A stretch of 64,000 nucleotides of DNA from Arthrobacter sp. JZ12. Lineage in GTDB: Bacteria; Actinomycetota; Actinomycetes; Actinomycetales; Micrococcaceae. Location: positions 124,001-188,000 of the forward strand of contig NZ_CP045246.1 of NCBI RefSeq assembly GCF_035189165.1, given 5' to 3'. Both the position numbers and the translations under genes were made by a program. Shown piece by piece: positions 2,847 through 63,211 of the stretch; position 1 is the stretch's first letter; every line of letters starts with the position of its first letter. Under the pieces are notes generated by a model. The model was not told the origin of the DNA. It saw nothing but the letters and a program-made list of their open reading frames with translations, and ran no database searches.

Positions 2847-3827
2847 TTATGGACGGGTAGGGGCGGGGTTGGTTGGGGTGAGGGCGCGGACGACGACGGC
2901 TTCCGGCGTTGTCTGATTCAGTGCAGGCACGGTGGACCCGGGGAGGGAGGCCGCGGCGGAGCCGTGGGCCACCGCCTGCCGGAGACAGTCGGGTGCACTT
3001 CTGCCGCTCGTATGAGCCAGGAGGTAGCCGGCGAGCGCGGAGTCTCCGGCACCGACGGTCGAGATGGCGGTAATGGGAGGGTGCTGCGCGTGCCAGGCGC
3101 CCTCCCGGCTTACCAGCAGCGCACCTTTCGAGCCGAGTGTTGCCAATACGGCCCGGACGCCGTGGGCCAACAGCCGGGTGGCCGCCTCCACTGCAAGGTC
3201 CTGTTGATTTTCGAGTTCATCACCGTGGCCGATGCCGGTCAGTTGCGAGAGCTCCTCGGCATTTGGTTTCAGCAGGTCCGGGGCAGCGTCGCCCTCGATA
3301 GCCGCAATGAGCGCCGCTTCGGATGCGTCGATTGCAATCATCGGTGCGCGTTCGGCGTAACGGGTACGAACGGCTCGCACCACGGAAGCATAGAAGTCGC
3401 TTGCCAGGCCCGGCGGAAGCGAACCGGCGAGCACAAGCCAACTGGCGCCGTCGGACGCCTCGACCACAAGGTCGACGAGTTCTTCGGCCTCCTGCGGCGT
3501 GAGCGCGGGTCCGGGCTCGTTGATCTTTGTGGTGGTGCCGTCCGGTTCGGTGATGGTCACGTTGCTTCGCAGCGCCGAGGAGATCGGAAGGTTGCGGTAG
3601 GGAACTGAGGCTGCGTCCAGTCCTGTGAGAACCGGATCGTCCCCGCGCCCGGGGAGGATCGCGCGGGCGTCGGCGCCGCCGGCTGAAAGTGCCCGGCAGA
3701 CATTCACGCCCTTGCCGCCCGACTCCTGGCGGTTAGCGGTGGCGCGCTGTACGGCTCCGCGGGCCAGGGGAGCCGCAAGCTCGATGGTGCGGTCGAGGCT
3801 GGGGTTGGCGGTGAGCGTGATGATCAT
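2847..3827 (-). CDS. fruK: 1-phosphofructokinase
   Basis: A PfkB/ribokinase-family sugar kinase that phosphorylates fructose 1-phosphate to fructose 1,6-bisphosphate. The N-terminus MIITLTANPSLDRT, the GGKGVNV sugar-binding motif (about residues 38-44) and the anion-hole/catalytic motif STVGAGDSALAG near the C-terminal third are diagnostic. Length (326 aa) is normal. The start ATG overlaps the stop of the upstream regulator (ATGA), and fruA follows 18 bases later, so translation is coupled. Tagatose-6-phosphate kinase is the nearest alternative but the PTS partner favours FruK. Confidence 0.93.
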   Translation of the reverse strand: MIITLTANPSLDRTIELAAPLARGAVQRATANRQESGGKGVNVCRALSAGGADARAILPGRGDDPVLTGLDAASVPYRNLPISSALRSNVTITEPDGTTTKINEPGPALTPQEAEELVDLVVEASDGASWLVLAGSLPPGLASDFYASVVRAVRTRYAERAPMIAIDASEAALIAAIEGDAAPDLLKPNAEELSQLTGIGHGDELENQQDLAVEAATRLLAHGVRAVLATLGSKGALLVSREGAWHAQHPPITAISTVGAGDSALAGYLLAHTSGRSAPDCLRQAVAHGSAAASLPGSTVPALNQTTPEAVVVRALTPTNPAPTRP

Positions 3828-4591
3828 GCGATCACCAGATCGACGTCAGCATCCGCGAGGGCGCTGGTGAGTTCTGGACCGGGCTGTACATCGGTGATCA
3901 GGGCATCGATGTCGCCGAGGGCGGCGAACCCTACAAGAGCTTCCTCATCCAGCTTGGAGCTGTCCGCGAGCACGACCACCCGCCGCGCGGACTGGACAAT
4001 AGCTGCTTTCACCGATGCCTCCTCGGGATCTGGGGTGCTGAGTCCGAAGTGTGCGTGCACGCCGTTGGTTCCGATGAAACCTATGTCCGGACGGAAGCTT
4101 CGGTAGCGTGCCGCTGTGCCGCTGCCCACGCAGGCGCTGGTGAGGCCCCTGACCCGTCCACCAATGAACTCAATCTGCTGTCCGGAGCCAATGAGAGCGT
4201 GAGCCACCGGAATGGAGTGGGTAATGATGAGTCGTTGTTCAACTGGCTCCTGCGCCACCAGCGCCGCAAGGTTGCCGGTGGTTGTCCCGCCGTCGAGCAC
4301 AATCGATCCTTCGGCCGGAAGCATGGTGAGCGCAGCCTTGGCGATCCGGGCCTTCTCCGCCTGGTTCCGTTCTTCCCGTGTGGTCAGGCTCAGCTCCCGG
4401 GTGCTGGCACTCGCGAGGGGGACAGCCCCGCCGTGCACCCGCCGCAGGAGACCATCCTTTTCGAGCAGGTCCAGATCCCGTCGAACGGTCTCCTTGGTGA
4501 TGTCAAAACGCGCGGCCAGCTGCGCAACGGTCACCCGGCCTTCGGACGCGACCAGTTCGGCGATCCGGTTGTAACGTTCCTCGGCGAACAC
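3824..4591 (-). CDS. fruR: DeoR-family transcriptional regulator of the fructose operon
   Basis: The 255-residue protein begins with a DeoR winged helix (FAEERYNRIAELVASEGRVT, then KETVRRDLDLLEKDGLLRRVHGGA at about residues 33-56). The C-terminal part is a DeoR sensor domain with GGTTTGNLA and a DSSKLDEEAL stretch typical of sugar-phosphate sensing members. Start is GTG with GGGAGG upstream. It is the first gene of the fru operon and overlaps fruK by 4 bases. By analogy with other actinobacterial FruR proteins it probably responds to fructose 1-phosphate; that is inference. A candidate operator lies in its own promoter. Confidence 0.9.
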   Translation of the reverse strand: MFAEERYNRIAELVASEGRVTVAQLAARFDITKETVRRDLDLLEKDGLLRRVHGGAVPLASASTRELSLTTREERNQAEKARIAKAALTMLPAEGSIVLDGGTTTGNLAALVAQEPVEQRLIITHSIPVAHALIGSGQQIEFIGGRVRGLTSACVGSGTAARYRSFRPDIGFIGTNGVHAHFGLSTPDPEEASVKAAIVQSARRVVVLADSSKLDEEALVGFAALGDIDALITDVQPGPELTSALADADVDLVIA

Positions 4592-53670: not shown

Positions 53671-55868
53671 TCAGCGGGTCTCGAAGAGGACAATCTCCGC
53701 GGTGCCGGTGAGCGGTGCGGAGGACGCGTCGCCGGCATCCGTGTAGCTTGCGCTGAACACGGCGGACAGATCGTCGACAGCAGGATCATGACCTTCCGGA
53801 ACCGTGGTGGTCAGGGTTCCGGTGCAACCCGATGTGGTGGTCTGCGGGTGACCATGGGTGTGGTGCCCAAGGATGTAGGTCACCTCGACCAAGGAGCAGT
53901 CCACCGGCTGGTCATCGGTGACACGCACTTCATAGGTCACGGTGTCACCGAACTTGAAGTCCTGCCCTGCCACGGGGCTGATGAACTCGATCACCGGCGC
54001 CTGGTTGCCGACCTCAATGGCTACCTCTGCCGAGGAGGAGCGACCGCGGTGCTTGCCCCCAAGGTCCGTCACCTGCAGGGTTGCCGTGTAGGTTCCGGTC
54101 TCCTCATAGGTGAAGGAGGGGTTCGGCTCCTCCGAGTCCACAACTCCATCCGAGTTGAAGTCCCACTTGTAGCGGAGCTTGTCGCCGTCGGCGTCGTTGG
54201 TTCCCTCACTCGAGAACTGGACCGTCAGGGGTGCGGAACCCGCGACGGGGGATCCGGAGGCGACGGCTACGGGACTGTGGTTGCCATTGGGCCCGATGTA
54301 GTCGATGCGGGACAGCTGGGCATCGGGGTTCTCGCCGAAGTAGCCGTCTCCGTACTCCAGGACGTAGAGCGCTCCGTTGGGACCGAATTCCATGTCGATC
54401 GGGTTGTCGACGACGAGGGAGTCCACAACGTTCTCGATCGAGGCCAGCTCGCCGTTCTCCATGGTCATGCCCTTGATGTAATCGCGGGTCCATTCGTAGA
54501 AGAAGGACTTGCCGTCGTAGTAGGAAGGCCAGGCAACCGGGGCGCGGCCCTTTGTTGCCTTCTCATCAAACTGGTAGGCCGGGCCGGCCATGGGGCCGAT
54601 GCCACCGGTCTCAAGCTCCGGGAACTCCGGGGAAAGACCGTAGCTGTACCAGACTTCCGGCTGGGCTACGGGAGGAAGCTCGCGAAGACCCGTGTTGTTC
54701 GGCGATTCGTTGACGGGAGCTGCGCAGTCGAAGGCTTCGCCGGAAGTGCCCGTGGCGAAGTCGTAATCGACATACGGCAGTTCTGCGGTGGCGCAGTAGG
54801 GCCAGCCGTAGTTGGAAGGTTCGGTGACAACAGCCCACTTACCGGTGCCTGCAGGACCGCGAAGGGGGTTCGCAGTGCGGGCGTCAGGGGAGTAGTCGCC
54901 GATGTAGAGTTCACCGCTGCTCTGGTTGAGTTCGATACGGAACGGATTACGCAGTCCCATCACGTAGATTTCCGGTCGGGTCTGGGGCGTTCCCGGGGCG
55001 AAGAGGTTTCCTTCGGGAATGGTGTAGCCGCCGCCGTCCTGGGGGTGATACGAAGAACCTTGCCGCGGAGGTCATTGGTGTTGGCGGAAGTGCGCTGCGC
55101 GTCGAGCGCAGGATTGCTCGTCGGACGCTCATCGATGGGCGTGAAACCGCCGGACTGGAACGGGTTGGTGTCATCGCCTGTCGAGAGGTACAGGTTACCC
55201 TCTGCGTCGAAGACGATGTCGCCGCCGACATGGCAGCAGATTCCACGGTCCCCGGGTACCTCGATGATCTCCTGCTCGGAGGCGAGGTCGATGGTGGATC
55301 CATCGAACTGGAAGCGCGACAACTTCAGGGTGCCGTGGAACTTCTCGAAATCTGCGGCTGTGCCTGTGAAGGGTGCATCGCCCTCATTGACCGTGGGGGT
55401 TGCCGGATCGTCCACGGGAGTATCCTGCGGTGGCGAGTAGTAGAGGTAGACCCAGTTGTTGCCCTTGGTGCCGAACTTCGGATCGAGGGCGATGCTCTGC
55501 AGGCCCTCCTCATCGTGCTGGTAGACGTCGAGGGTTGCCGCCAGCGTGTTGAGACCGGTCTTCGCTTCATGGAGCCAGACCTCGCCACCCCGGGTGGTGT
55601 GCAGGACATTGTTGTTCGGCAGAACGGCCAGGTCCACGGGTTCTCCCGGGCCATCATTCAGCGTGACCTTCTGGAAGTTGGCATCCGGGGGAGCAACCTG
55701 CGGGGCTGCGCCGGACTGCGCCTGGACTGGCGCTACGGCGAAGGACGTTGCCATCAGGGCAGCCAGAGCAAGGCCCGCGCCCGTGCGTGCCCTGAACTTG
55801 GCCTTGGAATTGGCGGCATCGCCCCGATGCCCGGAAGCTTTCGCTTTCGCTTGTCGATTGACTGTCAT
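53671..55868 (-). pseudogene. secreted PQQ-type sugar dehydrogenase with PKD domain, frameshifted
   Basis: Two overlapping minus-strand frames (55868-54960 and 54963-53671) together make one glucose/sorbosone dehydrogenase-like protein of about 732 residues. The N-terminal frame has a signal sequence ending APVQAQ, then a beta-propeller: VDLAVLPNNNVLHTTRGGEVWL, ICCHVGGDIVFDAEGNLYLSTGDDTN. It breaks in a 5-G run (55041-55045): adding one base restores RITPQDGGGYTIPEGNLFAPG and then MGLRNPFRIELNQ, IGDYSPDA and a PKD domain (VQFSSEGTNDADGDKLRYKWDFNSDG), then an Ig-like end. A real mutation or a base-call error both fit. It is downstream of the Ebo-like operon. Confidence 0.85.
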
Positions 55869-56104: not shown

Positions 56105-57505
56105 TCAGCTCCGTATCGATTGCATCTCCAGCACGAGGTCCTTGACCCTGGCTGCGGGAACCTGGCGGTCTGATCCCACCAGGGGTTCGAATGAGGCAGG
56201 GATCCTGGAGGACGAACTGAGGATCAGCGGCGTGCCTTCCGCCGAATCCGGCAGCCGGCCGTGGGTTCCCCGCACATGCGAAGGATCCAGGGGCACTGTG
56301 CTCATGGCGTAGCGCATACCCAGCTTCTTCTTCACGAGATTCAGCCCGGCCTTGGCTTTGGCAAGGCGGTCGGCGGGATTGAAGAACAGCTCGGCGGGGT
56401 CGTAGCCGGGCTTTCGATGGATATCGACGCCGCGGGCGTACTCAGGTGCGCGCTCGTCGTCGAGCCAGAAGTAGTACGTGAACCAGGCTCCCGGCTCGGC
56501 AACCACCACCAGTTCCCCGGACCTCTCGTGGTCGAGCCCGTACCTTCCCTGGGCTTCGCGCGACAGCACCTCGTCGACACCGTCGAGGCCGCGCAGTAAG
56601 GCCGCCACCCGCTCAACGTCGGCGGGATCGGAAACGTAGACATGCGCAACCTGGTGGTCGGCAACGGCGAAAGCGCGCGAGGTCCATGGATCGAGCTGTT
56701 CGCGTCCGTCCTGCACATACACCTCAAGCAGCCCCTCGCGGCGCAACACCCGGTTGATGTCCACGGGCCTGTCGGCCGGTTCGATGCCGTACTCAGACAC
56801 GGCGAGAACGTCATAGCCCGAGGATTGCGCTTCGTCCAGAAGCGGTGCCAGGGCAGCGTCGAGTTCCCTTGCAGCCGAGTGGGCCTGCGGGGAGTCCGGG
56901 CCGAACCGCTGGAGGTCGTAGTCGAGGTGAGGCAGATAAGCCATCAGCAGGTGCGGACGCCGTGTGCGCATCACATGTCTTGTCGAGTCGACGATCCAGG
57001 CCGTGGACCGGATGGCAGCGGTCGGACCCCAGTACTGGAACAGGGGGAACTCGCCGTATGAGGAAGTGAGCTCGTCGTGCAGGTCGGCCGGGCGCACATA
57101 GGCGTCCGGTGATTTGCGGCCGTCAGCGTGATAGATCGGGCGAGGTGTCACAGTGACGTCTGTGGACATGCCCATGGCATACCACCAGCAGATGTTGGCT
57201 GCCTGATAACCCGGATCCCGGTGGCGGGCGGTTTCCCAGATGTTCTCGCCGTCGACGAGGCGGTTGTGTTGCCGCCACAGAAAGACATCCCCGAGTTCCC
57301 GGAAATACCAGCCGTTCCCCACGATGCCGTGCTCGGCCGGTGACAGGCCCGTCAGCATAGTGGACTGCACTGTGCAGGTCACGGCGGGCAACACGGTCGC
57401 CAGCTGCGAAGACCAGCCTTGTTCGCCGAGCCGTGACAATCGCGGCATCGAAGCCAGGGCCTTCGGAGTCAGGCCGACAACGTTCAGGAGCAGTACGGGT
57501 TTCAT
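56105..57505 (-). CDS. eboF: EboF-like nucleotide pyrophosphatase/phosphodiesterase
   Basis: A 466-residue alkaline-phosphatase superfamily protein of the family found in Ebo operons. Visible: VLLLNVVGLTPKAL at the start, LPAVTCTVQSTMLTGLSPAEHGIVGNGW (Thr nucleophile region), YLPHLDYDLQRFGPDS, SEYGIEPADRPV, AFAVADHQVAHVYV and VDIHRKPGYDPAELF. These Asp/His residues bind two metals. No signal peptide, so cytoplasmic. ATG 57505 has AAGGAAG upstream; a TTG at 57550 would add 15 residues. It ends the Ebo-like operon. Substrate is unknown. Confidence 0.88.
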   Translation of the reverse strand: MKPVLLLNVVGLTPKALASMPRLSRLGEQGWSSQLATVLPAVTCTVQSTMLTGLSPAEHGIVGNGWYFRELGDVFLWRQHNRLVDGENIWETARHRDPGYQAANICWWYAMGMSTDVTVTPRPIYHADGRKSPDAYVRPADLHDELTSSYGEFPLFQYWGPTAAIRSTAWIVDSTRHVMRTRRPHLLMAYLPHLDYDLQRFGPDSPQAHSAARELDAALAPLLDEAQSSGYDVLAVSEYGIEPADRPVDINRVLRREGLLEVYVQDGREQLDPWTSRAFAVADHQVAHVYVSDPADVERVAALLRGLDGVDEVLSREAQGRYGLDHERSGELVVVAEPGAWFTYYFWLDDERAPEYARGVDIHRKPGYDPAELFFNPADRLAKAKAGLNLVKKKLGMRYAMSTVPLDPSHVRGTHGRLPDSAEGTPLILSSSSRIPASFEPLVGSDRQVPAARVKDLVLEMQSIRS

Positions 57506-57516
57506 GGATTTCTTCC

Positions 57517-57558
57517 TTGCCGGATCGAACTTGCCGATTGCCGGATCCAACCTGCCGG
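57517..57558. repeat. two tandem 21-bp direct repeats between eboE and eboF
   Basis: Unit 1 (57517-57537) and unit 2 (57538-57558) match at 18 of 21 bases, both beginning TTGCCGGATC. They occupy most of the 66-base gap. On the minus strand they would code a 7-residue repeat (DPAIGKF/DPARKKS) if the EboF frame started at the upstream TTG. Otherwise they are leader sequence. Confidence 0.7.
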
Positions 57559-57571
57559 ATCAGGCAGTCGG

Positions 57572-58690
57572 CTAATTGGAGGTTGCGAGCAGGTTGGAGC
57601 CCGCCCAGTCGATTTCGGCGGCGATTCCTTCGATGATGCCGACCGTTGAATCCGGCAGGACGCTCCAGGTGTAGGTTTCGACGTCGAGGTGCACTTCCGC
57701 ACCGTAGGAAGCCCTTCGGACCGCTGCCACTGTCCGGCGCAGCACCTCATCCGTGCTCTCGAGTGGTGCAGCCGGTTCATGATGCAGGGGAATATGGAAG
57801 TGCACGCGCCAGGGATTTTGCGCAGGCAGGCTATCGAGGGCCTCGGCGAGATCGTCGGCCGCAAGCACGCCGCCCTCCGTGACCTCCCTCACCTGGTGGA
57901 GATACCTGGGCTCGGCGAAGCCCTCCAAAGCTGTCCGGGCCGCAGGAGCAGAGGGGTCGGGCACGTGAAGCGCCATCGACGCCTGCACTTTGACGACGCG
58001 GATTCCAGCGGCAGCTATTCCGCGGATAGCTTCCTCCGGATCAGCGAAGGAGACTGCGAGGTGGCAGGCGTCCACGCATACGCCCACATATTGCGGGTCG
58101 ATCCCCCGGTCGAGGCGGGCGCCGAGCCAACTGACGACGTCGGACACGGTATCCAGCACGCATCCGGGTTCGGGTTCAACGGCAATCCGCACGGTCCTGC
58201 CCGTGCGTTCCCGAAGCTCAGCGAGCGCCCGGCTGAGCCGGCCGAAGGCGGCTGTGGCGGCGTCGTCGTCGTCCTGCGTCCAGGGCTCGCGCCAGGCGAG
58301 CGGCACGGTGGAAATCGACCCCGCTGTGCCTTCAGGCAGCAATGCTGCGAGAACCTCGGCGCAGTCCAGCGTGTATTCCAGGCGTTCCCCTTCGGCCCAG
58401 GTGGGTTTGTACACCTCCAGCTTTACGACGTCATTGTGGAAACCGCCGTACGGGAAGGCGTTGATGGTGTGGAGTTGCAGTCCCTCTGAAGTGAGTACGT
58501 TCCGGAGCGCCTCCCGGTCTTGCGGATTCGCCGCCAGCTGCCGGGCAAGCGTTGCCGGGAGCCAGAGCCCTACCCCCAGCACAGGAAGACCTGTCTTGCG
58601 GCGGATCGGACCCGCATAGTCCCGCAATTGGCGGATGACGCCGTCGAGATCCTCAGCCGGATGGACATTGGTGCAATAGGAGAGCAGCAT
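57572..58690 (-). CDS. eboE: EboE-like sugar phosphate isomerase/epimerase
   Basis: A 372-residue xylose isomerase-like TIM barrel of the EboE family. Features: MLLSYCTNVHPAEDLDGVI, INAFPYGGFHNDVVKLEVYKPTW, LLPEGTAGSISTVPLAW, AVEPEPGCVLDT (metal Glu), GVCVDACHLAVSF (metal Asp/His) and HLDVETYTWSVLP. The ATG overlaps the TatD-like stop by one base (TGATG). It is between the EboB-like and EboF-like genes. EboE proteins are linked to metabolite traffic in other Ebo operons but the reaction is not known. Confidence 0.88.
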   Translation of the reverse strand: MLLSYCTNVHPAEDLDGVIRQLRDYAGPIRRKTGLPVLGVGLWLPATLARQLAANPQDREALRNVLTSEGLQLHTINAFPYGGFHNDVVKLEVYKPTWAEGERLEYTLDCAEVLAALLPEGTAGSISTVPLAWREPWTQDDDDAATAAFGRLSRALAELRERTGRTVRIAVEPEPGCVLDTVSDVVSWLGARLDRGIDPQYVGVCVDACHLAVSFADPEEAIRGIAAAGIRVVKVQASMALHVPDPSAPAARTALEGFAEPRYLHQVREVTEGGVLAADDLAEALDSLPAQNPWRVHFHIPLHHEPAAPLESTDEVLRRTVAAVRRASYGAEVHLDVETYTWSVLPDSTVGIIEGIAAEIDWAGSNLLATSN

Positions 58691-59568
58691 CAGGCGCGGG
58701 CTCCGCGCAGGACCGAATTGCCCTCGAAGCCGACCCCGGCGGCGGGAAGCTCGTCTGCCACGAAGCCGGGTATGGGATCGAGGATGAGCTGGCCGCTCTG
58801 TCCGTAGAACTCGACGGGGTTGCGCCACAGGACCTGGTCCACGTCGTCGGGCGTGAAGCCCGCTGCAAGCATGGCGTTCGCGGTGCTGAGCGTCTTCAGC
58901 GGATCTGAGCGGCCCCAGTCGGCGGCGGAATTTACCAGCATCTTCTCGGTGCCGTAGCGCTGCAGGATGGCGACCATGCGATGCTCGTCCATCTTGGTGT
59001 CCGGGTAGATCGAGAACCCCATCCAGGCTCCGGCGTTCTTGACGATCTCCACGTTGGTTTCGTTGAGGTGGTCCACGACCACCCGTTCCGGCCCGATTCC
59101 CGATTCGCGGACGACGTCGAGCGTCCGGTGGGTGCCCGACAGCTTCTCGCGGTGCGGGGTATGGACGAGCACCGGCAGTGAATACTCGATGGCAAGCTCG
59201 AGCTGGCGGCTGAAAGCCTGGTCCTCGGCGGGGGTCATTGAGTCATAACCGATCTCCCCGACGGCAACCACGCCTTCCTTGACGAGGTAGCGCGGCAGTT
59301 CGTCGAGGACGGGCACGCAGCGCGGGTCGTTGGCTTCCTTGGGGTTCAACGCAATCGTGGCGTGGTGCCGGATGCCGAACTGAGCTGCACGGAACCGCTC
59401 CCATCCCAGCAAGGAATCGAAGTAGTCGATGAACGATCCGACGTTGGTGCGGGGCTGCCCGAGCCAGAATGCCGGCTCCACCAGCGCGCGGACTCCGCTC
59501 GCGTAGAGGGCTTCGTAGTCGTTGGTGGTGCGGCTGGTCATGTGGATGTGCGGATCAAAGATGCGCAT
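58690..59568 (-). CDS. eboB: TatD-family metal-dependent hydrolase (EboB-like)
   Basis: A 292-residue amidohydrolase-fold protein. The metal-binding residues are seen in FDPHIHMTSRTTNDY (HxH), VGEIGYD (Glu), VLVHTPHREKLSGT (His) and NSAADWGRSDPL (Asp). This pattern matches the TatD-like hydrolase found in Ebo operons rather than the DNase TatD. Start ATG 59568 is 24 bases after the EboA fusion stop, and its stop overlaps eboE by one base. Substrate unknown. Confidence 0.88.
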   Translation of the reverse strand: MRIFDPHIHMTSRTTNDYEALYASGVRALVEPAFWLGQPRTNVGSFIDYFDSLLGWERFRAAQFGIRHHATIALNPKEANDPRCVPVLDELPRYLVKEGVVAVGEIGYDSMTPAEDQAFSRQLELAIEYSLPVLVHTPHREKLSGTHRTLDVVRESGIGPERVVVDHLNETNVEIVKNAGAWMGFSIYPDTKMDEHRMVAILQRYGTEKMLVNSAADWGRSDPLKTLSTANAMLAAGFTPDDVDQVLWRNPVEFYGQSGQLILDPIPGFVADELPAAGVGFEGNSVLRGARA

Positions 59569-59592
59569 GGGTGCTGCTTCCTCCGGTTGCTG

Positions 59593-61089
59593 TCAGTTCT
59601 GCTTCAGTTCGCCTGCGGGAAGCTGCAGAAGCAGTTCCGCATCATCTGGGACGGGACGGCCGGCGGCCCGCCGTTCCGCGGCGAATGCCTCAGCCATCCG
59701 CGCCAGCTCGTCATCGGCCCTCGTGCGAAGGTCCGCGACGGCCTGCAGGCTGATGCCCGTGAAGATGAGTTTGAGGACGGCGTGGCGCCAGCTGTGCTGG
59801 TCCAGGTATTGGGCGGCGAACGGCCCTACGGCCGAGGCGACCAGTGCGCTCTCGTTGGTTCGCAGCGCATCCGTTGTCAGTGCCAGTCCAGCACTGACGA
59901 CGACGTCGGGAAGCGCCGGATGGCTGTCGGCCAGCACTCCGAGCCCCCTCAGTACGCCCCGCCGTTCCCCGGAGTCGCCGCGGTTGTAGAGGTCGGTGAG
60001 GGTTGCCGCGAGCTCGTCGGGACGGAAATGTCCACCCAGCCGGCCGATCAGGCGGGCGCGAGCGACGTCGTCCGTGGTGCCGCACAGGACCCCGGTAGGG
60101 TCGGTAGCCGGGAAGGCCGGCGTCCGACCGACGCTGCGGCCGGCCGTGGCGAAGATCCTGGGCAGGAGCATCGCGTCGGAGGTAATAGCCGCGGCGCTTT
60201 CCTGCACCCAGCGTGCGGTGTTCCTTGAGCCGGAAGAGGCGTCCCAGGCATCTCGGAGTGCCGCCATGCTGCGCGCCGCGAGGCCCGGCGCATCATGCGA
60301 ATGCCGGGGAAGCTCAACCGCAGCGATCCCCTGGAAGTCCAGTTCGTCGAGGGTGGCAAGCGCCTCGGCAACATCGACGGCGCCCTGACCGAAGGGTAGG
60401 TGCTCGTGCGCTTCGGGGCGCATATCGTCCAGCTGGACGTTGGCGAGCAGCGCGCCGGCCCGAAGCAGTGCTCCCCGCACGCCGTCGGGCTCAACGACCA
60501 CGCAGTGCCCGATGTCAACGGTGATTCGCAGGTGTTCCGGGTCGCCTAATTCAGTCCTTAGCCGCAGGGCATCCGCAACGGTCTCAACCAGCATCCCGGG
60601 CTCAGGTTCGATCGACAGGAGCACGTTTCGGGACCGCGCGTGGTTAATAAGGTCACCGACGCGCGATGTCAGCCGCTGCCAGCCTGTCTGGGGGTCCGTA
60701 TCCGCGGGCAGGACGCCGGAAAAGAAGGAAACGCACTCCGACTCCAGGGCAGCGGCAACGTCCACGGCACGACGCAGGAAGTCGACACGGCTGTCGGCAA
60801 CCTCATCGACGAGTGCAGGCCGGTGCTTCTGCCGCGGATCCAGCAGGAAACGGGTACCCGTTTCGATGACGCTGCGCATTCCGCGTTCGGACAGGAGCCG
60901 CCGAAGCTCCTGCACCTGCTGTCCGCAGTCCTCCGCGAACGGGTCCAGGTGGGGGAAGCCGAGGGTGAGGGCGACAGCCGTGTACCCCTGTTCCGACAGG
61001 AGGTCGAGCGCTACCGGGAGCGGATGGTCCGCAAAGCCGTTTGTTCCGTAGCCAAGGCTGAAGCGCATGCCTTCTGCTGGCGTGGTCAT
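59593..61089 (-). CDS. TIM-barrel isomerase fused to an EboA domain
   Basis: A 498-residue two-domain protein. Residues about 8-280 form a xylose isomerase-like barrel with probable metal residues Glu161 (SIEPEPG), Asp192/His195 (VDIGHC) and Glu259 (AVELPRH). Residues about 285-498 are an EboA domain: RWVQESAAAITSDA, LIGRLGGHFRPDELAATLTDLYNRGDSGERRGVLRGL (split), and VGPFAAQYLDQHSWRHAVLKLIFTG. EboA domains have no known activity. ATG 61089 overlaps the UbiA stop (ATGA). In other Ebo operons I know, EboA is a separate protein, so the fusion suggests a physical link to a sugar or cyclitol isomerase. Confidence 0.85.
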   Translation of the reverse strand: MTTPAEGMRFSLGYGTNGFADHPLPVALDLLSEQGYTAVALTLGFPHLDPFAEDCGQQVQELRRLLSERGMRSVIETGTRFLLDPRQKHRPALVDEVADSRVDFLRRAVDVAAALESECVSFFSGVLPADTDPQTGWQRLTSRVGDLINHARSRNVLLSIEPEPGMLVETVADALRLRTELGDPEHLRITVDIGHCVVVEPDGVRGALLRAGALLANVQLDDMRPEAHEHLPFGQGAVDVAEALATLDELDFQGIAAVELPRHSHDAPGLAARSMAALRDAWDASSGSRNTARWVQESAAAITSDAMLLPRIFATAGRSVGRTPAFPATDPTGVLCGTTDDVARARLIGRLGGHFRPDELAATLTDLYNRGDSGERRGVLRGLGVLADSHPALPDVVVSAGLALTTDALRTNESALVASAVGPFAAQYLDQHSWRHAVLKLIFTGISLQAVADLRTRADDELARMAEAFAAERRAAGRPVPDDAELLLQLPAGELKQN

Positions 61090-61967
61090 GATTCGCTGAT
61101 CCTCCTGCTCCTGGGGCGGGAACGCAGTACCTTGCCCGTCAGGTCCACCAAGGCGAGTGCTGCGGCAGCCGAAGCGTTTCCGGACCGCAGGCTGAGGGCG
61201 GCCTGCAGCGGAATCATCGCGCGAATGCCGGCCTTGGTGGCTTCGAGCGCGTTGATGGCCTCCGGATTCCGGGCGGCCCGCACCTGCGCGGGAGCGCACC
61301 TCGCCGCGTACAGGGCGGACGCGGCGACGACGGCGGCAACCTGCCGCCGTGTGCCGGCGGAACCGGCTGCGACCGCCCCGGCGAGAAGTCCGGTGCCGGC
61401 AGCGACGCCGGACGCCGTCGTCGTAGTTGTGCCGTCGACCTCCCCGCGGGAGAGTAGCGTGACGGCAACGGTATGGCCGCCCATGATGCCGGCCGCCGAC
61501 AGGGCCGGCCGCAGATGACCACGTCCAGCGCCCATCAGGACGTCCAGCGCGCGGCAGGCACCCATGGTGAGGGCGCCGGGAACCGCGTACTTCTTTGCCG
61601 CGAGGTCGTAGGTCCAGATCGTGGCGGCAAGCGGAAGCCCGATGGCGAGCGCCCGCCGCCCGCCACCGACTGCGCTCAGGGCAAGGCCGACGACGGTCAG
61701 ACCCGTCGCTGTTGCCAGCGCGTCGCGGGCGCTGATGCGCCCGGAAGGAATCGGGCGCCGCGGACGCTCCCGTGCGTCGGTCTCCCGGTCTGCGTAGTCA
61801 TTGAGTGCCATGCCGCCCGCGTAGAGGCAGGCGCTCGCAAGGGGCAGGGCAAGGCGCCGTCCACCCATCCGGTGTCCTGCGGCCGAGCCGCCAGCGAGTG
61901 TGTCGCCCAGGACTGTGAGCACCGCCGGTGCCCGTACCAGTTCGAGATAATCGCCGAGGATGCTCAC
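61086..61967 (-). CDS. eboC: UbiA-family prenyltransferase (EboC-like, SCO3242 family)
   Basis: A 293-residue membrane prenyltransferase (GTG 61967). YLELVRAPAVLTVLGDTLAG leads to the first Asp-rich motif MALNDYADRETDARERPRRPIPSG (ND-x2-D-x3-D), and a second helix region follows after WTYDLAAKKYAVPGAL. Seven to nine helices are seen. It transfers an isoprenoid diphosphate to an acceptor. It resembles the Streptomyces SCO3242 family as I remember it. The GTG overlaps the inositol-phosphate synthase stop (GTGA), so acceptor-making and prenyl-transfer genes are coupled. Confidence 0.87.
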   Translation of the reverse strand: MSILGDYLELVRAPAVLTVLGDTLAGGSAAGHRMGGRRLALPLASACLYAGGMALNDYADRETDARERPRRPIPSGRISARDALATATGLTVVGLALSAVGGGRRALAIGLPLAATIWTYDLAAKKYAVPGALTMGACRALDVLMGAGRGHLRPALSAAGIMGGHTVAVTLLSRGEVDGTTTTTASGVAAGTGLLAGAVAAGSAGTRRQVAAVVAASALYAARCAPAQVRAARNPEAINALEATKAGIRAMIPLQAALSLRSGNASAAAALALVDLTGKVLRSRPRSRRISES

Positions 61968-63211
61968 GGGAGGTGGTTCTCCGCGTCGCTTGAGAGCCGG
62001 GCAGTGGCGGCCGCAGCCCACTCCACAAGGTTCCTGGTCTGGTTGGCGAAGGAATGTTCGTCGCTGCCCCAGGGATCCTTGAAGAAGAAACCTAGGGCCG
62101 GGATGTTGCCCGTCTCTCCGGCCGCGTCCGCGAGTGCCATGAGCCTCGCGAGGTCCAGCACCATGGGTGCGGCGAGCATGGAGTCGAACGCACTCCAGGT
62201 TGTCTGCAGGGTCAGGCGGGATCCAAGGAATCCCTCGATGTTGATGTGGTCCCAGGCGACCTTGGTTTCTCCGAGGTCCTGCACGTTGTCGATGTGGAGT
62301 GGGGTAACGGCGCCCCCGGTAAGCTCCTGCAGGCCGCGGTTCTTGGACTGCAGCTTCCCGGAAACAGCCTGGGGGTCCGCGAGCGTGGCTCCGTCACCAC
62401 CGCCGAGCAGGTTGGTCCCGGCCCAGGACAGTACCCGCAGGCCCCGCGACGCCAGCGCGGGAGCAAGGACGGAGCGCAGCCAAGTCTGTCCGGTTTTGCC
62501 GTCCTGTCCGGCTGTGGCGATTCCCTGGCGATCCGCCAGTATGCGCAACGCCGGCACATTCAGGGCAGTCGACGGCGTGAAGCACACATAGGGGGCGCCG
62601 GCGAGGACCGCGGCGTAGGCACTTACCGAGCTTGGAGGCAGTACAGCCCTTGCCGGGTCCTCGAGCGCGGCCAAAAGCAGGTCCGGATCTTCGAACTCGG
62701 GGGCAGGTGCTGCGGGCGGTTCAGTGGACGCGACATCAAGCACGATCACGCGGGCGAGGCTGTGGGTCTCCCTGAACTCGAGGATGTCCTGGGCCAGGCG
62801 CCGGGCGACCTGTGCCTGGGATTCCGAACCCTGCCCGGGGTCGTAGCCGGGACGGACCCGTTGGTCGGTGTCCACCAGATGCGCGCGCACCGATTCGATG
62901 AGGTGTGGCGGCAGCATCCCGGACTCTACGAGTCCTTCTGCCCGTTTGGCCATGCACACCTCGCTGATGTCATGGCCGCCGATCAGGAGTTCCCGGTAAG
63001 AGGGGAGGGCTACGCCGTCGAACTGCTTCTGCTCCGTGACGCACCCCGTGGGATCCGCGTAGCCGGCGGAGATTGCGGCAAGGCCGGCAGCAGCGGTTGT
63101 TGCCACAGATCCACGCGCTCCAATCAGCCAGATGCCGGTCCTTCCGAACGAATGGACTCGGTTGTCCGCTTGCAGCGGTTCATCCGGGATCCTCTCGGCT
63201 GATGTTCCCAA
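61964..63211 (-). CDS. inositol-3-phosphate synthase family protein
   Basis: A 415-residue MIPS-like NAD-dependent enzyme that would convert glucose 6-phosphate to inositol phosphate. It has the NAD motif IWLIGARGSVATT (31-39), AGQDGKTGQTW (235-244), SWAGTNLLGGGDGATL (262-277), and LGETKVAWDHINIEGFLG (313-330) with the catalytic-type Lys residues K239 and K317 (approximate). The start is TTG 63211 with AAAGGA 9 bases upstream. It is the first gene of the Ebo-like operon, where other operons have EboD. Membership in MIPS is clear; whether it makes inositol phosphate or a related cyclitol phosphate is not. Confidence 0.85.
   Translation of the reverse strand: MGTSAERIPDEPLQADNRVHSFGRTGIWLIGARGSVATTAAAGLAAISAGYADPTGCVTEQKQFDGVALPSYRELLIGGHDISEVCMAKRAEGLVESGMLPPHLIESVRAHLVDTDQRVRPGYDPGQGSESQAQVARRLAQDILEFRETHSLARVIVLDVASTEPPAAPAPEFEDPDLLLAALEDPARAVLPPSSVSAYAAVLAGAPYVCFTPSTALNVPALRILADRQGIATAGQDGKTGQTWLRSVLAPALASRGLRVLSWAGTNLLGGGDGATLADPQAVSGKLQSKNRGLQELTGGAVTPLHIDNVQDLGETKVAWDHINIEGFLGSRLTLQTTWSAFDSMLAAPMVLDLARLMALADAAGETGNIPALGFFFKDPWGSDEHSFANQTRNLVEWAAAATARLSSDAENHLP

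Follow-up and report, generated by a model that had tools for sequence, protein, structure and literature searches.

A myo-inositol-phosphate-synthase-type cyclase and a second TIM barrel in the place of EboD in an ebo-type operon of Arthrobacter sp. JZ12

The ebo operon, which is found in several phyla and in algal plastids, has been proposed to make an isoprenoid-cyclitol (PMC5133447). A locus in Arthrobacter sp. JZ12 raises the question of which enzyme would form the ring in such a pathway when EboD is absent. The locus lies in a stretch of 64,000 nucleotides, referred to here as the window, which covers positions 124001-188000 of the 3.31 Mb genome (one contig, placed in Micrococcaceae by its nearest relatives), and an initial annotation made from the sequence alone had described it as an Ebo-like operon in which an inositol-3-phosphate synthase takes the place of EboD. 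Profile and Pfam searches confirmed that EboD is absent and that a myo-inositol-phosphate synthase (MIPS) stands in the operon. The replacement for EboD, however, is not MIPS alone but a pair, MIPS and an extra xylose-isomerase-like TIM barrel, which is new here, as is the presence of this pair in an EboG-type operon of Gemmatimonadota. It is very probable that the pair stands in genetically for EboD. That the window operon belongs to a branch of the ebo pathway built on MIPS is a reading that we slightly favour.

The window operon and the absence of EboD

All six genes of the Ebo set named in the initial annotation were found, with the order and strand given there. They are co-directed on the minus strand at 56105-63211 and are transcribed in the order MIPS, UbiA, TIM-barrel-EboA fusion, EboB (TatD), EboE and EboF (Table 1). 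Since start and stop codons overlap at the MIPS/UbiA (GTGA), UbiA/TIM-EboA (ATGA) and EboB/EboE (TGATG) junctions and the other gaps are short, we read the six genes as one operon. EboE, the EboA domain, EboB (TatD) and EboF (PF01663), by which an ebo operon is recognized, are all in the window. EboE scored 430 bits against NF035939 (cut-off 250), the EboB-like protein 51 bits against PF01026, MIPS 161 bits against PF07994 and 94 bits against PF01658, and the EboF-like protein 221 bits against PF01663; the last was also placed in an alignment and a tree together with EboF from further ebo operons.

Two of the genes were not quite what they had been taken for. The UbiA protein is formally a member of the SCO3242 family and not EboC, because it scored 308 bits against NF045897, 'SCO3242 family prenyltransferase' (cut-off 260), and only 156 bits against the EboC equivalog NF035940 (cut-off 250). 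The EboC cut-off was missed as well by the UbiA of an EboD-type proteobacterial operon (L117, 86 bits) and was reached by that of a Bacteroidota locus (L128, 342 bits). The NDxxDxxxD motif is conserved in the window UbiA. In the third gene the EboA domain is present as described (NF035938 EboA_domain, 139 bits, cut-off 50; the narrower NF035937 EboA_family gave 48.7 bits and its cut-off of 320 was not reached), but it is fused to an N-terminal TIM barrel (PF01261, 119 bits), so the operon encodes another TIM barrel in addition to EboE and thereby a seventh function. This fusion was noticed earlier (PMC5133447).

No EboD was found in the operon, nor in the 17 kb past the end of the window, where the initial annotation would have taken an EboD as refuting its reading, when open reading frames (ORFs) of at least 90 amino acids in that stretch were searched with EboD/AroB profiles. 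The genome has a single match to PF01761 (dehydroquinate synthase), flanked by aroK-like and elongation-factor-P-like genes, as named from their translations, and we take this sole dehydroquinate synthase to be AroB. Since EboD is absent from the operon, from the 17 kb flank and from the genome, the locus is a variant and not a standard member of the ebo family. Compared with the ebo operon (ABCDEF, with EboG variants; PMC5133447, PMC6282210), it is alike in having EboE, the EboA domain, EboB, UbiA and EboF in one operon, and its relative in Gemmatirosa also has an EboG-like ORF, but it differs in lacking EboD, in having MIPS and the extra TIM barrel, and in a UbiA that falls under the EboC cut-off.

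Table 1. Positions of the operon genes and of other features discussed (window positions unless a locus is named)
Feature	Position	Strand	Remarks
MIPS-type cyclase (archaeal-type Ino1)	61964..63211	-	415 amino acids from TTG 63211; PF07994/PF01658
EboC-like UbiA prenyltransferase, SCO3242 family	61086..61967	-	NF045897; GTG start overlaps MIPS stop codon
Fusion of N-terminal xylose-isomerase-like TIM barrel and C-terminal EboA domain	59593..61089	-	PF01261 + NF035938
EboB-like TatD-family metal hydrolase	58690..59568	-	PF01026; included in an alignment and a tree with EboB from further ebo operons
EboE TIM barrel	57572..58690	-	NF035939; ATG 58690 overlaps EboB stop
EboF-like type I phosphodiesterase/nucleotide pyrophosphatase	56105..57505	-	PF01663; ATG 57505, TTG 57550 also possible
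Non-core neighbour, glucose/sorbosone-dehydrogenase-like (GSDH-like) + PKD protein	53671..55868	-	PF07995, PF18911; split over two frames
Sugar-type ABC transporter loci	L074 2270-7037; L092 1-5830; L135 10645-16728		
YcaO-type MIPS neighbourhood	L172 6797-13423; L173 6638-13990; also L171, L183		

Mutual exclusion of MIPS and EboD and the partner TIM barrel

If MIPS replaces EboD, then the two should not be found together beside EboE. We compared 115 EboE loci, namely, the window, 80 genome loci (the best 80 of 580 relatives, from 596 stretches, matched to the window EboE), 13 further genome loci and 21 plasmid loci (21 of the 48 plasmid records that have EboE). A decayed cluster with no EboE label (L114) and three stretches from the genome of the window itself (L100, L115 and L116) are not in this number. 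MIPS without EboD was found in 91 loci, EboD without MIPS in 10, both in none and neither in 14. The mutual exclusion that the initial annotation would count in favour of replacement therefore held in 101 of the 101 loci that have either gene, although the actinobacterial cases are not independent of each other, and because the 80 genome loci were picked by similarity to the window EboE the counts lean to the window's kin. Among the 14 loci with neither gene, L042, L043, L044, L050, L052, L070 and L071 end at a contig end, four are Lentzea clusters whose genomes carry an ebo-type MIPS elsewhere, one (L102) is from a genome that also holds a complete cluster (L103), and two (L132 and L134) are partial.

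The extra TIM barrel follows MIPS and not EboD. It lies within 8 kb of EboE in 91 of 91 MIPS loci, with a profile score of at least 290, and its profile matched none of the 10 EboD loci. It is on one ORF with EboA in 46 of the MIPS loci, the window included, and is separate in 45, among which the Gemmatirosa locus has no EboA.

The same association was seen across 296 sampled Actinomycetota genomes. EboE and SCO3242-type UbiA, both scoring above their respective cut-offs, and MIPS of at least 472 bits (the next best MIPS being 361 bits) are each present in 13 genomes, and these are the identical 13; SCO3242 and MIPS were scored on the best 6-7 first-look candidates per genome. Because the three genes share the same 13 genomes, their co-occurrence is more than chance, as judged from the counts. 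No relatives of EboE were found in viral contigs.

The suggestion that a similar arrangement may already exist in streptomycetes was correct. The full seven-gene order is present on three Streptomyces plasmids (L122, L123 and L129), and the NCBI annotation of Streptomyces plasmids already puts 'inositol-3-phosphate synthase' beside 'SCO3242 family prenyltransferase'. In S. coelicolor, SCO3242 and SCO3243 are known as annotation, being named 'putative transferase' and 'myo-inositol phosphate synthase' and listed with genes of the calcium-dependent antibiotic (CDA) cluster in one (PMC3610822) of two transcriptome papers that mention SCO3243. In the open PMC literature, which leaves most subscription papers and preprints outside its scope, no paper among the matches listed joins ebo and inositol, and none contains both 'EboE' and 'inositol'.

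Three loci deserve mention for their own sake. On the Streptomyces plasmid L122 a gene of the ScyD/ScyE family, these being scytonemin-cluster names, is directly upstream of the MIPS-type ebo operon (2927-4126). In Streptomyces sp. NBC_01244 a lone EboE lies in a type II polyketide cluster (L134, 7965-9143), which suggests that EboE is able to work apart from the other ebo genes. The decayed cluster L114 (5935-10643, genome G279) has a broken EboC and EboE in pieces and lacks TIM and MIPS; its EboA, EboB and EboF still score well.

MIPS-type clusters in Gemmatirosa and in haloarchaea

MIPS-type ebo extends beyond the actinobacteria. All 10 EboD loci lie on plasmids of Pseudomonadota, Deinococcota and Bacteroidota, and the eleventh non-actinobacterial EboE locus, on a plasmid of Gemmatirosa kalamazoonensis (Gemmatimonadota; L118), has MIPS and TIM. 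Its EboE is over the cut-off (460 bits), and its UbiA is under both cut-offs with 172 bits for SCO3242 versus 136 for EboC. It also has an EboG-like ORF, which matched the profile of two Deinococcus ORFs with 58.9 bits (E=3.6e-16); we call these two EboG, given their place between EboD and EboB and the report of EboG in Deinococcus (PMC5133447). Gene trees were built from 34 chosen loci, and approximately unbiased (AU) tests were done on at most 26, L128 being left out of those for EboC and EboF due to its long branch. Gemmatirosa EboB grouped with that of EboD-type Deinococcus (support 100/100), and its union with the other MIPS-type EboBs was rejected (p-AU 3e-49). Its EboF sits with the EboD-type as well. 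Based on these placements of EboB and EboF, it appears that an exchange of EboD for MIPS, or of MIPS for EboD, took place in two distinct backbones.

Three haloarchaeal plasmids from Halobaculum, Natronococcus and Halocatena (L167, L169 and L170) each bring together MIPS, a PF01663 enzyme, UbiA, TatD and two TIM barrels; in two of the three clusters MIPS and PF01663 run opposite to the rest, and the Pfam basis of this cluster is Halocatena only. In a Halomarina locus, a MIPS of the same clade lies among glycosyltransferases (L168, 8977-10221). Haloferax volcanii has an Ino1 homologue, HVO_B0213 (PMC8305020). A different neighbourhood in Hymenobacter and Roseomonas joins MIPS with a Gfo/Idh/MocA oxidoreductase, a YcaO-like protein and a TIM-barrel sugar isomerase, and its MIPS form their own clade (Table 1); L171 and L183 were assigned to it solely from the clade of their MIPS and a TIM barrel close by.

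A number of points weigh against the replacement and its spread as given above. Within the actinobacteria, the change from EboD to MIPS appears to have happened once, long ago; the 91 loci are therefore not 91 independent tests of exclusion, and the independent support for replacement is the one Gemmatirosa locus. The evidence from outside the actinobacteria consists of 11 EboE loci, all on plasmids since the phyla beyond Actinomycetota were sampled through plasmids only, and one of these is MIPS-type; among the ten EboD loci, two are from one species and two are from one strain. In one of the 13 genomes (G051) the match to MIPS reads through a single in-frame TGA. Two EboD loci of one species (L120 and L137) have an annotated 'sugar phosphate isomerase/epimerase' beside EboB, which the extra-TIM profile did not match, and thus EboD operons are not wholly without extra sugar isomerases. 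As to the trees, the AU groups were defined after a first tree had been viewed, and a long-branch warning applies to Gemmatirosa/Deinococcus versus haloarchaeal EboB. The actinobacterial grouping of Gemmatirosa EboF was rejected only just (p-AU 0.044), and for EboE, which is with the EboD-type in the best tree, the actinobacterial alternative was not rejected (p-AU 0.176). Gemmatirosa EboC is with the actinobacteria in the best tree (96/90), which, if true, would mean that UbiA travels with the cyclase; the EboD-type grouping was not rejected here either (p-AU 0.192). Lastly, EboA and EboE over the cut-off were not found in the haloarchaeal clusters, which for this reason are called related and not ebo, and the joining of haloarchaeal EboC to the MIPS-type has a support of 92/66; the tree without L128, being unrooted, does not bear on it.

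The neighbours of the operons also bear on what the clusters do. Of 119 loci searched, counting the window, 40 have ORFs similar to the GSDH-like + PKD gene next to the window operon; the gene is a single ORF in relatives, for example in L021 (12798-14945), and its split in the window is a frameshift or an assembly error. A sugar-type ATP-binding cassette (ABC) transporter made up of an ATPase, two permeases and a binding protein adjoins MIPS-type ebo clusters whether MIPS is present or not (Table 1). For its substrate, no equivalog cut-off was reached among the matches listed (for the ATPase, 25 of 188 families). As four Lentzea clusters have such a transporter at the usual position of MIPS, import in place of MIPS was considered; this idea was dropped because L092 has both the transporter and MIPS, and because the Lentzea genomes keep an ebo-type MIPS elsewhere.

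These transporters, together with ThuA, sugar isomerases and the GSDH-like proteins, would be at home in a sugar/cyclitol utilisation or glycolipid pathway, and it could be argued that the actinobacterial and haloarchaeal clusters are a separate pathway that shares ebo families and has an unrelated product, in which case the comparison of MIPS with EboD would mislead. The UbiA being formally SCO3242 and the lack of EboA and EboE in the haloarchaeal clusters fit this explanation. We consider it unlikely because 13 actinobacterial genomes and Gemmatirosa have an EboE that exceeds the curated cut-off, because the EboA domain, EboB and EboF accompany EboE, with EboB and EboF aligning with the EboD-type, and because in Gemmatirosa MIPS and TIM lie inside an otherwise EboG-type ebo operon.

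The cyclase and the proposed pathway

Whether the operon MIPS is dedicated to this pathway depends on its relation to the housekeeping synthase. The initial annotation would have taken its clustering with housekeeping enzymes and its being the sole MIPS of the genome as refuting the replacement. The window's genome has two MIPS genes, and in a MIPS tree of 57 rows the window MIPS falls outside the housekeeping Ino1 clade. All 16 housekeeping sequences fall into a single clade (100/100) on a very long branch, and a second clade (100/99) comprises the 30 actinobacterial ebo MIPS. The haloarchaeal MIPS are sister to this second clade (99/93), and the Gemmatirosa MIPS is deeper with modest support (89/75). 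For this tree 16 of 28 housekeeping rows were used, the actinobacterial ebo rows were thinned from 49 to 30, the long-branched L111 being among those removed, and the L157 fragment was left out. A search with PF01658 of 34 targets, which are 33 genomes and the Gemmatirosa plasmid, found at least one MIPS in each. Neither of the two refuting observations thus applies to the window's genome. Among the 33 genomes, however, G268 and Agromyces ramosus G300 have no MIPS but the ebo-type one; two or three MIPS are present in each of the remaining 31, and a housekeeping-type Ino1 was recovered in 28 of these.

In those two genomes the ebo-type MIPS could serve both needs, which lends some support to the explanation that it is a MIPS for general inositol use, as in phosphatidylinositol and mycothiol, and owes its place in the ebo operon to regulation or history. 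This is quite improbable because 31 genomes have two or three MIPS, the 16 treed housekeeping Ino1 are one far-off clade, and the ebo-type MIPS co-occurs exactly, at the genome level, with EboE and SCO3242 in the 296-genome sample.

The closest PDB match of the window MIPS is Archaeoglobus fulgidus Ino1 (AfIno1; 1u1i, 179 bits), which shares with it the sequence family and the catalytic residues and differs in operon context. N267, K286, K290, K317 and K378 of the window protein align with N255, K274, K278, K306 and K367 of AfIno1, and all are kept. The mutant entries 3qvw, 3qvx and 3qw2 carry changes at K278, K367 and N255 (numbering from the printed alignment), and K274 and K306 are two more catalytic lysines. 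Among 109 MIPS ORFs of more than 300 bits, N255, K274, K278 and K306 are kept in all and K367 in 108, L073 having R. Of these ORFs, 90 are from the counted EboE loci. The other 19 are repeat occurrences of the same genes or members of second clusters, the copies in Lentzea, 3 genes from the haloarchaeal clusters, 1 from Halomarina and 4 of the YcaO-type.

It is conceivable that the enzyme has kept the redox cyclisation and makes another cyclitol phosphate, closer to the EboD product, from a substrate such as fructose 6-phosphate or sedoheptulose 7-phosphate. NCBIfam models gave no match to the window MIPS at E 0.001, and a distant PDB relative, 6k96 (28.6 bits), named five-membered-cyclitol-phosphate synthase and which we take to be the aristeromycin enzyme using fructose 6-phosphate, shows that the MIPS fold can change its product. 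The window protein is, however, far nearer to true MIPS (AfIno1), and all five AfIno1 residues looked at are kept, so a changed specificity seems to us rather unlikely.

Based on these findings, we propose the following pathway, in which the enzymatic steps and the product are what we infer from the genes. A dedicated NAD-dependent MIPS, separate from the housekeeping synthase, would make an inositol phosphate, the most likely reaction being that of glucose 6-phosphate to 1L-myo-inositol 3-phosphate, and would thereby fill the role of cyclitol source that elsewhere is ascribed to EboD, a sugar-phosphate cyclase from the dehydroquinate synthase superfamily. The partner TIM-barrel enzyme may adapt the MIPS product by an isomerase- or epimerase-like step, the UbiA enzyme (SCO3242/EboC) would attach a prenyl group to the cyclitol within the membrane, and the last steps would fall to EboB, EboE and EboF (metal hydrolase, TIM barrel and phosphodiesterase). 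The most likely product on this view, a prenylated inositol-type lipid, may move or anchor metabolites, a role that has been suggested for ebo in Nostoc, where it is involved in moving scytonemin precursors (PMC6282210). That MIPS and TIM supply the ring precursor is, on sequence grounds, marginally the better supposition. That the product is prenylated inositol as such is doubtful. The EboD products, as proposed, come from sedoheptulose 7-phosphate and carry no phosphate (PMC5133447), and since MIPS gives a C6 phosphate, the products of the two cyclases are not strictly of the same kind, which counts against the initial idea of equivalent cyclitols.

The acceptor of the prenyl group is a further point of doubt. 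UbiA-297, an EboC homologue, farnesylates 8-hydroxyquinoline-2-carboxylic acid in vitro (PMC9235831), which tells against a cyclitol because the acceptor may be aromatic. If quinoline acids or other molecules are the acceptor, then MIPS or EboD would be on a side branch. That study resembles ours in dealing with an EboC-like enzyme in an ebo cluster and with the Asp-rich motif, and Saccharomonospora loci are aligned there too; the enzymes it tested are from Maribacter, Zobellia and Algoriphagus, and its section 5 makes no mention of MIPS (PMC9235831). On the other side, six EboC columns differ consistently between MIPS-type and EboD-type (104 versus 10 ORFs) while the prenyl-diphosphate motif is shared. 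These differences fit an acceptor that changes with the cyclase, but they follow from common descent too. A non-cyclitol acceptor is, in our judgment, a minority possibility.

A bolder reading, which we regard as less likely than not, is that MIPS and TIM are an interchangeable cassette for EboD in EboA-type and EboG-type backbones, and that actinobacteria, Gemmatimonadota and haloarchaea share a family of operons, spanning both domains, that makes a new prenylated inositol-type lipid with a UbiA prenyltransferase. As the cyclase has been swapped for a well-understood enzyme, the guess that a cyclitol is prenylated becomes directly testable via inositol, and MIPS-type ebo brings in genetically tractable hosts, namely, Streptomyces and possibly Haloferax.

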